DNA of 64,000 nucleotides, taken from contig NZ_JAIFYA010000003.1 of the NCBI RefSeq assembly GCF_019688735.1, positions 434,001-498,000 of the forward strand. The letters are read 5' to 3'. Shown piece after piece: positions 49,720 to 60,544 of this stretch; within the stretch, counting starts at the first letter, position 1; each line of letters opens with the position of its first letter. The stretch is from Thermosulfurimonas sp. F29. Lineage in GTDB: Bacteria > Desulfobacterota > Thermodesulfobacteria > Thermodesulfobacteriales > Thermodesulfobacteriaceae. The translations under genes were made by a program, and so were the position numbers. The notes under the pieces were generated by a model. The model was not told the DNA's origin. It saw only the letters and a list, made by a program, of their open reading frames with translations, and made no database searches.

Positions 49720-50007
49720 ATGGAAAGGAAGGGTATCCGGCAATTGAGCGTCCTTTTCAAGATCCTGGGGGACGAAAATCGTCTCCGCATCCTTCACGAG
49801 TTGCGCGAAAAGGAGGCTTCCGTTGGGGAGCTGGTAAACCGCCTGGAAATATCGCAACCCCTGGTCTCCCATCATCTACGGGAGCTGAAACTGGCCGGTC
49901 TGGTCACCAGCCGCAAATCGGGGCCTTATGTGTTTTACCGGTTGAGTAAACCCCGGGTCTTTGACCTCTTTGCCCTGGCCCAATCCCTCGTGGGGGAGAA
50001 TCCATGA
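49720..50007 (+). CDS. ArsR-family winged-helix transcriptional regulator
   Basis: Homodimeric DNA-binding repressor. The family core is complete: LFKILGDENRLRILHEL, EASVGELVNRLEISQPLVSHHL (recognition helix SQPLVSHHLREL) and the GPYVFYRL wing. There is no Cys (no CxC metal site), so it senses something other than arsenite through the usual helix-3 site. ATG 49720 is preferred; the ATG at 49702 lies inside the probable -10. It overlaps the next gene by 4 bases (ATGA), so it probably controls the Sec cluster. Confidence 0.88.
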   Translation: MERKGIRQLSVLFKILGDENRLRILHELREKEASVGELVNRLEISQPLVSHHLRELKLAGLVTSRKSGPYVFYRLSKPRVFDLFALAQSLVGENP

Positions 50008-50444
50008 AACCCGAACTCAAGGAATGCCTAACCGGTCTTTCCCTGGAGGAGATGCAGGAGGTGATCTTTTTTCTCCTTCCCCAGATCTATGCGCTTCTCG
50101 ACGAGGAGGCTCAACAGAAGTTTTTTCTGAAACTATTCAAAGGTGAAGAGGGACGCGTTCCCTCCATGGTCTATTACTGACTGGCCAAGTGTTTTGACGC
50201 GGGCGTGGACCCGCGTTCGGTCTGTCAGGGTATGATTTCTAGGATGGGAGAGGCCGAGAGCCTTCCCGGGGAGGTCCCGGAGAGTCTCAAACTCCTCTTT
50301 GAGGAGTGGCTGGACGAGCTCACCGAAGAGGCCCGTCGAGCCCTGGCCCGGAATCCCCGGCTTTCTACCGAGGAGCTCGCCCGGTCCCTCCACCTGCCGC
50401 CTGAAGGAGTTAAGTATATCCTGACCCGACTGGAGCACCGTTAA
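50004..50444 (+). CDS. putative novel selenoprotein with UxxxC motif (UGA at 50178-50180 read as Sec59)
   Basis: Reading through an in-frame UGA joins two parts of one frame: 58 codons from ATG 50004 and 88 after the UGA, to TAA at 50442-50444. The product is 146-147 aa with Sec59 in VYY-U-LAKC, i.e. U-x3-C (Cys63), plus Cys8 and Cys75. Residues 10-50 are helical, and about 115-145 (LSTEELARSLHLPPEGVKYI) resemble a winged-helix or HTH. A hairpin of SECIS type starts 16 bases after the UGA. The frame and codon bias continue unchanged past the UGA, and tRNA-Sec is encoded at 60449. I do not recognise the family. ATGA overlap with the ArsR gene suggests joint function, perhaps redox or metalloid sensing. 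If UGA stops, only a 58-aa peptide is made. Confidence 0.72.
50178..50216 (+). promoter_or_regulatory. SECIS-like element of the UxxxC selenoprotein
   Basis: UGA at 50178-50180, then a perfect 7-pair stem ACGCGGG (50197-50203) with CCCGCGT (50210-50216) and 6-base loop CGTGGA with G in position 2. The loop begins 24 bases after the UGA, inside the range known for bacterial SECIS elements; a further G-C pair beyond a bulged U extends the stem. Confidence 0.65.
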
Positions 50445-50493
50445 CTCAAGGAATCACCGCCGCCCCACCCTTCGGGAAACCCTTCCTGTTAGC

Positions 50494-50522
50494 TTGACTT
50501 TCTGATAAAAATATGTTTATGT
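50494..50522 (+). promoter_or_regulatory. probable promoter of the DsrE-like pair
   Basis: TTGACT (50494-50499), then 17 bases, then TTATGT (50517-50522); strongly AT-rich compared with surroundings. It suggests the DsrE pair can be expressed separately from the arsR-selenoprotein unit. Confidence 0.5.
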
Positions 50523-50555
50523 ATTTATACAAAAACACAGAGGGAGGTGGAGGCC

Positions 50556-50876
50556 ATGAAACTGGGGATCGTTATTACCACCAGGGACCCCGAAAAGGCT
50601 TGGAACGCCGTGCGGCTGGCCAACTTTGCCCTGAGGGCCGGGGACGAGGTCAGAGTCTTTCTGATGGGAGAAGGGGTGGAGGCCCCCGAGGTGGATCAGC
50701 CCCCATTCAGGGTCAGGGAGCAGTTGGAAGAGTTCCTGGCGGGAGGGGGTGAGATCCTGGCCTGCGGCACCTGTTTGAAGTTGCGGGAAAGGGAAGCAGG
50801 GGAACTCTGTCCCCTCTCCACGCTAAAGGACCTCTACGAGGTGATAAGGGATTCGGATCGCGTCGTGACCTTTTAA
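50556..50876 (+). CDS. cytoplasmic DsrE-family protein with CxxC site
   Basis: A 106-aa DsrE/peroxiredoxin-like fold (COG1553/2044-type) that handles sulfane sulfur. GIVITTRDPEKAWNAVRLAN begins the fold; the active-site loop is GGEILACGTC (Cys70, Cys73) and it ends in DRVVTF. ATG 50556 lies 10 bases after GGGAGG; a GTG 9 bases earlier is less likely. No signal peptide. It is paralogous to the exported selenoprotein next door, with conserved AxRLANFALxxGDEVR. Confidence 0.88.
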   Translation: MKLGIVITTRDPEKAWNAVRLANFALRAGDEVRVFLMGEGVEAPEVDQPPFRVREQLEEFLAGGGEILACGTCLKLREREAGELCPLSTLKDLYEVIRDSDRVVTF

Positions 50877-50901
50877 TACTTCTGCGTAAAGGAGGACGCC
50901 C

Positions 50902-51306
50902 ATGAAATTCCGAAAAGTTCCGGTGATCCTTTTAGGACTTTTCCTGATTCTCGGAGCGTGGATGGGAAATTCCCGCGCCGGGGAGGGCCGAAAACTGCTT
51001 CTGGTCATCACCACCGACGAGGTGGAAACCGTCTGGCAGGCTCTGAGGCTGGCCAATTTCGCCCTCTCTCAGGGAGACGAGGTGCGGATCTATCTTACCG
51101 GCAAGGGGGTGAAGACGGTAACCCTGGGCAACGAACCCCTGGATGTGGCCCGTAAGCTCGAAACTTTCCTGGACGACGGCGGTGAGGTGTACGGCTGAAA
51201 GAAGGCCCTACGGATGCACGGCGTGCATTCCGACAAAGTCACTCCCGCGGGCCGTAAGGCCTTTTACCAGATGATCCGGGAGAGCGACAAGGTCCTGGTT
51301 TACTAA
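50902..51306 (+). CDS. exported DsrE-like selenoprotein (UGA at 51196-51198 read as Sec99)
   Basis: The 134-aa product has a signal peptide (1-26: VILLGLFLILGAWMGNSRA), then a DsrE domain paralogous to the previous gene. Alignment places the in-frame UGA exactly at the first Cys of the paralogue's CGTC loop: GGEVYG-U-KKAL versus GGEILA-C-GTCL. After the UGA, 35 codons continue the homology to the matching C terminus (MIRESDKVLVY versus VIRDSDRVVTF), ending at TAA 51304. The mature protein contains no Cys at all, so Sec would be its only chalcogen nucleophile. AAAGGAGGA precedes the ATG. A SECIS-type hairpin follows the UGA. A UGA stop would remove the conserved C terminus. Confidence 0.87.
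51196..51232 (+). promoter_or_regulatory. SECIS-like element of the DsrE selenoprotein
   Basis: UGA at 51196-51198, then stem CGGA-TGCAC (51211-51219) with GTGCA-(T)-TCCG (51223-51232), 9 pairs with one bulged U, and loop GGC (51220-51222) that begins 22 bases after the UGA. A bulged U beneath a short G-rich loop is the arrangement in the E. coli fdhF SECIS, although there the bulge is on the 5' arm. Confidence 0.75.
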
Positions 51307-51313
51307 AAGAATT

Positions 51314-51388
51314 TGGCTGGGGGGCTAGGATTCGAACCTAGACCGGTGGGTCCAGAGCCCACTGTCCTGCCGATTAGACGACCCCCCA
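51314..51388 (-). tRNA. tRNA-Gln (anticodon CUG)
   Basis: Minus strand: acceptor TGGGGGG/CCCCCCA, discriminator G with CCA encoded, D-arm CGTCTAATCGGCAGGACA, anticodon loop CTCTGGA (CTG), T-arm CTAGGTTCGAATCCTAG. The anticodon stem is GTGGG/CCCAC. It starts 8 bases from the end of the DsrE selenoprotein. Confidence 0.95.
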
Positions 51389-60448: not shown

Positions 60449-60544
60449 GGAAGCGCCAGGGGCCTGGTGGCCCCCCCGGGCTTCAAACCCGGTGCGCCGT
60501 CGGAAACGGCGGCGGGTGGGTTCGATTCCCATGCGCTTCCGCCA
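60449..60544 (+). tRNA. selC: tRNA-Sec (anticodon UCA)
   Basis: 96 bases including the encoded CCA. It has the Sec-specific 8-pair acceptor stem GGAAGCGC/GCGCTTCC with G-CCA, a 6-pair D-stem GGGGCC/GGCCCC closing a 4-base loop, anticodon loop CTTCAAA (TCA at 60483-60485), a long variable arm (GCCGTC-GGAAAC-GGC-type) and T-loop TTCGATT. This shows UGA is decoded as Sec here and supports the two predicted selenoproteins. Confidence 0.95.

Follow-up and report, generated by a model that had tools for sequence, protein, structure and literature searches.

A Tso-related selenoprotein cluster with DsrE proteins in place of TsoB and TsoC in Thermosulfurimonas sp. F29, and its possible role in sulfane-sulfur transfer at the envelope

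We identified a four-gene plus-strand cluster, including two predicted selenoprotein genes, in a 64,000-nucleotide stretch of the genome of Thermosulfurimonas sp. F29 (RefSeq GCF_019688735.1; contig NZ_JAIFYA010000003.1, positions 434,001 to 498,000; hereafter, the window). The host is a heat-loving sulfur bacterium with a nearly complete genome of 2.35 Mb, and its nearest named relatives are Thermosulfurimonas and related Thermodesulfobacteriaceae. In the reading that we put forward, which we hold at about even chances, the cluster represents a Tso branch whose TsoR-TsoA core is accompanied by DsrE sulfur carriers replacing TsoB and TsoC, and the products would form a relay for zero-valent sulfur at the envelope with selenocysteine (Sec) as the carrier residue. 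The features of the cluster are listed in Table 1.

Table 1. Features of the cluster and of the nearby selC gene (positions are those of the window)
Feature	Position	Strand	Evidence
TsoR-like ArsR regulator, without any Cys	49720-50007	+	NF045707, 89 bits (cut-off, 115); NF033788, 94 bits
TsoA-like selenoprotein, YULAKC site, 146 aa, Sec predicted at residue 59	50004-50444	+	NF045695, 99.6 bits (cut-off, 170); TGA kept in homologues
tsoA Sec codon (UGA)	50178-50180	+	TGA conservation; selection after the UGA
tsoA SECIS-like hairpin, 7-bp stem, 6-base loop CGUGGA	50197-50216	+	Clade conservation; codon conservation peak
Promoter-like TTGACT followed by AT-rich palindrome 5' of dsrE (weak)	50494-50537	+	Also found 5' of the following gene in relatives
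Cytoplasmic DsrE paralogue with ACGTC	50556-50876	+	PF02635, 44 bits
Exported DsrE selenoprotein (predicted), YGUKKA, Sec at residue 99, no Cys	50902-51306	+	PF02635, 40 bits; fold
Exported DsrE Sec codon (UGA)	51196-51198	+	Same-column TGA in relatives; selection after the UGA
Exported DsrE SECIS-like hairpin, GG in loop	51211-51232	+	84% of cells paired; compensatory changes; codon conservation
tRNA-Sec (selC)	60449-60544	+	ARAGORN

The layout agrees with a preliminary description of this DNA, which had reported a regulator gene overlapping the first selenoprotein gene, a cytoplasmic DsrE paralogue with a CGTC site, and an encoded tRNA-Sec near the cluster. The readthrough tsoA frame, which overlaps the stop codon of the ArsR gene, contains only one in-frame UGA, as does the gene for the exported DsrE protein. 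A search of the host genome for the Sec machinery, which the preliminary description had suggested as a check, recovered selA, selB, selC, and selD, the last with an in-frame UGA of its own, and the host thus qualifies as a Sec-decoding organism. The cluster is flanked by an aminotransferase-like gene, a tRNA-Gln gene, and a dCMP-deaminase-like gene. The tRNA-Gln (CTG) gene, on the minus strand at 51306-51388, ends 8 bases past the stop codon of the Sec-DsrE gene (i.e., the two genes are packed tail to tail).

Comparisons with homologues identify both UGAs as conserved Sec codons and both genes as genuine selenoprotein genes. Matches to the TsoA protein were found in 11 of 119 genomes (the host included), each with exactly one in-frame TGA, and the relatives in the other genomes are 30 to 70% identical to the window protein. 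In a sample of 395 genomes from the phylum, 47 genomes contained TsoA matches, and a TGA was present in every full-length match with an LU(L/I)AxC-type site. For the exported DsrE protein, all eight nearest copies have a TGA in the same column, and the UGA is retained in nearly all homologues. In the paralogue, this column holds the first Cys of the CGxC site, as the preliminary description had claimed, and more distant DsrE relatives have UGxC or Cys there. The search for Cys homologues aligned at the UGA, also proposed earlier, therefore succeeded for DsrE only: no full-length Cys form of TsoA was found among the homologues, and the relatives that lack the site are truncated or Met-rich.

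In comparisons of the window with its relatives, non-synonymous change is about equally low 3' and 5' of the UGA in both genes. Among sequence pairs sharing a residue, the fraction using the same codon was 0.77 (TsoA) and 0.71 (DsrE) in the 15 codons 3' of the UGA, compared with 0.41 to 0.51 elsewhere, and the best codon-conserved 15-codon windows of both genes fall on the UGA, which argues for an RNA signal inside the coding sequence. The SECIS-like hairpins of the preliminary description begin where it placed them, 16 bases (tsoA) and 12 bases (DsrE) 3' of the UGA. The DsrE hairpin contains a compensatory GC-to-CG change; no covariation was seen for the tsoA hairpin, which is conserved in its own clade and different in distant members. 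Folding energy alone was not significant for the hairpins (z between -1.45 and +0.26) and was dropped as proof of a SECIS element in favor of codon conservation and pair counts. This null result is what could be said for the UGAs being ordinary stops followed by chance or decayed sequence, a reading that is exceedingly improbable given the TGA kept in homologues, the low non-synonymous change and the codon conservation after it, and the DsrE relatives with Cys at the UGA column. Outcomes that would have counted against the two selenoprotein genes (i.e., homologues ending at the UGA, no Cys or Sec homologue, or missing selA or selB) did not appear.

The UxxxC selenoprotein is, by its family match and its place in a tree, a divergent TsoA, and the ArsR protein is a divergent TsoR. 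The former matches the NCBIfam model "LULAXC motif selenoprotein TsoA" with an E value of 2e-28, at a score below the family cut-off, and retains the LULAxC motif with Sec, the first Leu being replaced by Tyr. All members of the local TsoA clade score 94 to 122 bits against this model and form one group on the TsoA tree. The TsoR model match, likewise below its cut-off, ranks after a general ArsR/SmtB model, of which the cut-off is passed. The pairing of an ArsR regulator with a UxxxC protein, which the preliminary description had regarded as part of an undescribed combination, is therefore already covered by family models (NF045707 and NF045695); the variant with DsrE may be new relative to Tso as summarized in the review cited below.

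NCBIfam labels TsoR a metalloregulator. The window TsoR contains no Cys, and no conserved Cys column exists across the TsoR family; TsoR thus cannot sense in the manner of SqrR or SoxR, and metalloid sensing by the regulator is not supported. TsoR either senses something else or receives its signal from a partner, possibly TsoA. TsoA overlaps tsoR, retains Sec and Cys spaced by one helix turn, and has a C-terminal third weakly resembling a helix-turn-helix (HTH) domain, making it a candidate signal partner. This sensor role is a hypothesis drawn from gene position and the weak HTH-like match. The predicted TsoA structure (pLDDT, 74.7; pTM, 0.41) yielded only local HTH-like matches (AsnC/Lrp and FapR, approximately 41 residues) in a structure search, none with an E value below 0.001, and a comparison of the TsoA sequence with PDB gave one low-complexity-looking match and weak HTH matches. 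At five other loci (L035, L118, L119, L120, and L121), the C-terminal part of TsoA occurs alone after TsoR-like ArsR genes. Some of these Sec-less or altered relatives are Met-rich and lack the LULAxC site, and the L121 gene contains an in-frame UGA located at another motif.

The surroundings of 51 TsoA loci were scanned for TsoR, TsoB, DsrE, and DUF5714. TsoR lies immediately 5' of TsoA in nearly all of these approximately 50 loci. TsoB was found in 21 and DsrE in 18 (16 with DsrE downstream and 2 with DsrE approximately 2 kb upstream of TsoA), some loci have neither, and none has both (Fisher P = 3e-6, a value that ignores kinship among the loci). The TsoB and DsrE states change at least six times on the TsoA tree, indicating that the exchange does not reflect a single split. 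It is also not confined to the branch of the window, since locus L098 has DsrE beside a TsoA scoring 212 bits (i.e., above the NCBIfam cut-off). Searches of the host genome yielded only a 25-bit partial match for TsoB, compared with >1,000 bits in control genomes, and no match for TsoC, which the same search finds in genomes G046 and G086.

TsoB combines rhodanese, DsbD-type membrane, and thioredoxin-like domains, and the active-site Cys of its rhodanese is Sec (FYUAGL(A/T)UVRS) in all 20 copies with a readable motif. The active-site Cys of DsrE is likewise Sec in 17 of the 18 DsrE partners, the exception (L103) having Cys. Rhodanese and DsrE proteins are sulfane-sulfur carriers in which the active-site Cys holds the sulfur. 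The role of the active-site residue of DsrE as a sulfur carrier has been described (PMC9751629). The same Sec substitution in two unrelated folds beside the same core makes sulfane-sulfur handling the best-supported reading, and the exchange between DsrE and a Sec-rhodanese module lends further weight to the sulfane-sulfur idea of the preliminary description.

Additional genes occur in some of these loci. A DUF5714 gene (PF18978) lies between tsoA and dsrE in L037, L040, L041, and L036 and is also present in L031, L115, and L117. In L036 it is split over two frames, and neither the window nor L038 has it; it appears to be accessory and to have been lost repeatedly. Being absent from the window cluster and split in L036, it was dropped as an essential part. 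DUF5714 was not detected elsewhere in the host genome, and no control genome matched, though the model matches the sibling protein. A small glutaredoxin-like frame lies near the Tso core in L097 (538-753 relative to TsoA) and L088 (523-861), and an additional UGA may interrupt its start. In the window and in L037, L038, L039, L040, and L041, TTGAC and an AT-rich stretch recur 3' of tsoA and 5' of dsrE or DUF5714, a pattern suggestive of a second promoter that serves the sulfur-carrier genes. The AT-rich palindrome 5' of dsrE is barely above shuffled sequences and has no clear match upstream of tsoR, and we do not claim an operator shared by tsoR and dsrE.

The exported protein carries Sec at the first active-site Cys position of the DsrE domain. 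Most Sec-DsrE proteins have UGxC; the family of the window protein lacks the second Cys (UKKA; others have UGKL or UGKS) and with it the UxxC motif. Structure prediction gives the window protein, with good confidence (pLDDT, 88.5), a DsrE fold in which Sec sits where a strand ends, and the nearest solved structures in a fold search are DsrE/DsrF proteins (3pnx, 3mc3, and 2hy5_B); the fold search was used because the DsrE alignment profile matched no PDB sequence. Export, which the preliminary description had also proposed, is predicted from a hydrophobic, signal-like N-terminus, a segment that the window protein shares with four close relatives and that L031, L039, and L040 lack. The lone selenol cannot close an internal selenenylsulfide and, we infer, is better suited to carrying and handing over than to self-cycling. 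A Cys version is found in the genome of a relative (G030), in which an exported DsrE protein has ACGTA at the Sec position; its neighbors (nrdR-like, dCMP-deaminase-like, glyA-like, rpiB-like, and fabF-like genes, the names being judged by eye) resemble the genes downstream in the window. Thermosulfurimonas dismutans, which carries the same locus as the window (L014/L041), also encodes (L153, 3917-4351) a second exported DsrE protein, containing Cys (YACRAC), directly after a membrane protein that has a 4Fe-4S binding domain.

In the proposed relay, the exported DsrE protein would take zero-valent (sulfane) sulfur onto its lone selenol at the envelope as an Se-S(n) adduct. Lacking a resolving thiol, it would have to pass the sulfur to a partner and finally to cytoplasmic carriers, of which the CGTC DsrE paralogue is the nearest. 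TsoA, with its selenol and thiol, would be the cytosolic partner responding to redox state or to sulfur, possibly informing TsoR, and the two would adjust expression. In a Thermosulfurimonas-type bacterium, the cluster would probably be used to handle elemental sulfur and polysulfide. Disproportionation of elemental sulfur is known from named Thermosulfurimonas species (PMC12998232). The locus itself yielded no substrate, membrane step, or electron partner. A wider version, tentative and rather unlikely in our view, joins TsoA as a selenium-based sensor for a thiol-free TsoR to the exported DsrE protein as a one-selenol carrier; the Tso core would then be a general controller taking alternative Sec-armed sulfane-sulfur carriers (rhodanese or DsrE) in a perselenide relay at the envelope.

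The lone selenol could equally serve redox chemistry. In a thiol-redox or electrophile/peroxide defense, the Sec proteins would be fast reductants and sulfur incidental, and the DsbD and thioredoxin-like parts would feed envelope electrons in the TsoB type. Such a role would account for these TsoB domains and for the glutaredoxin-like small protein adjoining DsrE in L097, and Sec proteins are mostly redox enzymes (PMC13188914). However, the window cluster has no DsbD-like or thioredoxin partner, its exported DsrE protein has no second thiol and so could not cycle alone, and rhodanese and DsrE are sulfur-carrier folds, which leaves this explanation an unlikely one. Quite improbable, too, is a function in metal, metalloid, or selenium handling, in which an ArsR-controlled set of selenols would bind or reduce As, Hg, or Se species. 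The ArsR/SmtB fold, the NCBIfam label of TsoR, and the link of other selenoprotein operons to metals (PMC13188914) are consistent with it, but TsoR has no Cys, arsenic, mercury, and transport genes are absent from the window cluster, and neither DsrE nor rhodanese is a metal family.

Why some proteins pay for selenium is a largely open question. That Sec occupies the same functional residue in two unrelated sulfur-carrying folds, exchanged beside one conserved regulator-selenoprotein core, points to the transfer of sulfane sulfur as one use for Sec, and these proteins constitute a small, testable set. The exchange also provides a functional lead for the uncharacterized Tso system and, for the early steps by which sulfur disproportionators use elemental sulfur, a candidate. 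The exchange of Sec-rhodanese and Sec-DsrE behind TsoR-TsoA and the one-selenol exported DsrE protein may be new, relative to Tso as outlined in a 2026 review (PMC13188914).

Several known systems share parts of this cluster. The DsrE fold is common to the DsrEFH and TusBCD sulfurtransferases (2hy5); the window protein differs by Sec in place of Cys, a predicted export signal, and the lack of a DsrF or DsrH gene alongside (no DsrF, DsrH, TusA, or DsrC gene was found within the cluster). A DsrE protein likewise occurs in sulfur-disproportionating relatives, as part of the YTD cluster (YedE, TusA, DsrE, and Chp; PMC9751629 and PMC12998232). The window locus is separate, with no yedE or tusA adjoining dsrE, so that, by position, its DsrE is not that of the YTD cluster. 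The sulfane-sulfur-responsive ArsR repressors SqrR, BigR, SoxR, and sHdrR (PMC10451225 and PMC12423496) share the ArsR fold and the linkage to sulfur genes; two sensing cysteines, the defining feature of SqrR, BigR, and SoxR (PMC10451225), are missing in TsoR. DsrE-like selenoproteins (PF02635, UxxC) were known before, as the preliminary description had noted, from the Sargasso Sea and Desulfovibrio vulgaris (PMC1088965 and PMC1794560). They have the same fold with Sec at the first Cys of CGxC, whereas the window protein is exported by prediction, has lost the second Cys (UKKA), contains no Cys, and is linked to TsoR-TsoA. The closest system is Tso itself, the "three selenoprotein operon," for which the above review, after Haft and Tolstoy 2025, lists TsoA, TsoB, TsoC, TsoX, and TsoY. 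The window differs from it by a DsrE pair in place of TsoB and TsoC and by TsoA and TsoR scores under the NCBIfam cut-offs; the two share an ArsR gene directly before an LULAxC-type selenoprotein gene and a neighboring module with Sec at a sulfur-carrying residue.
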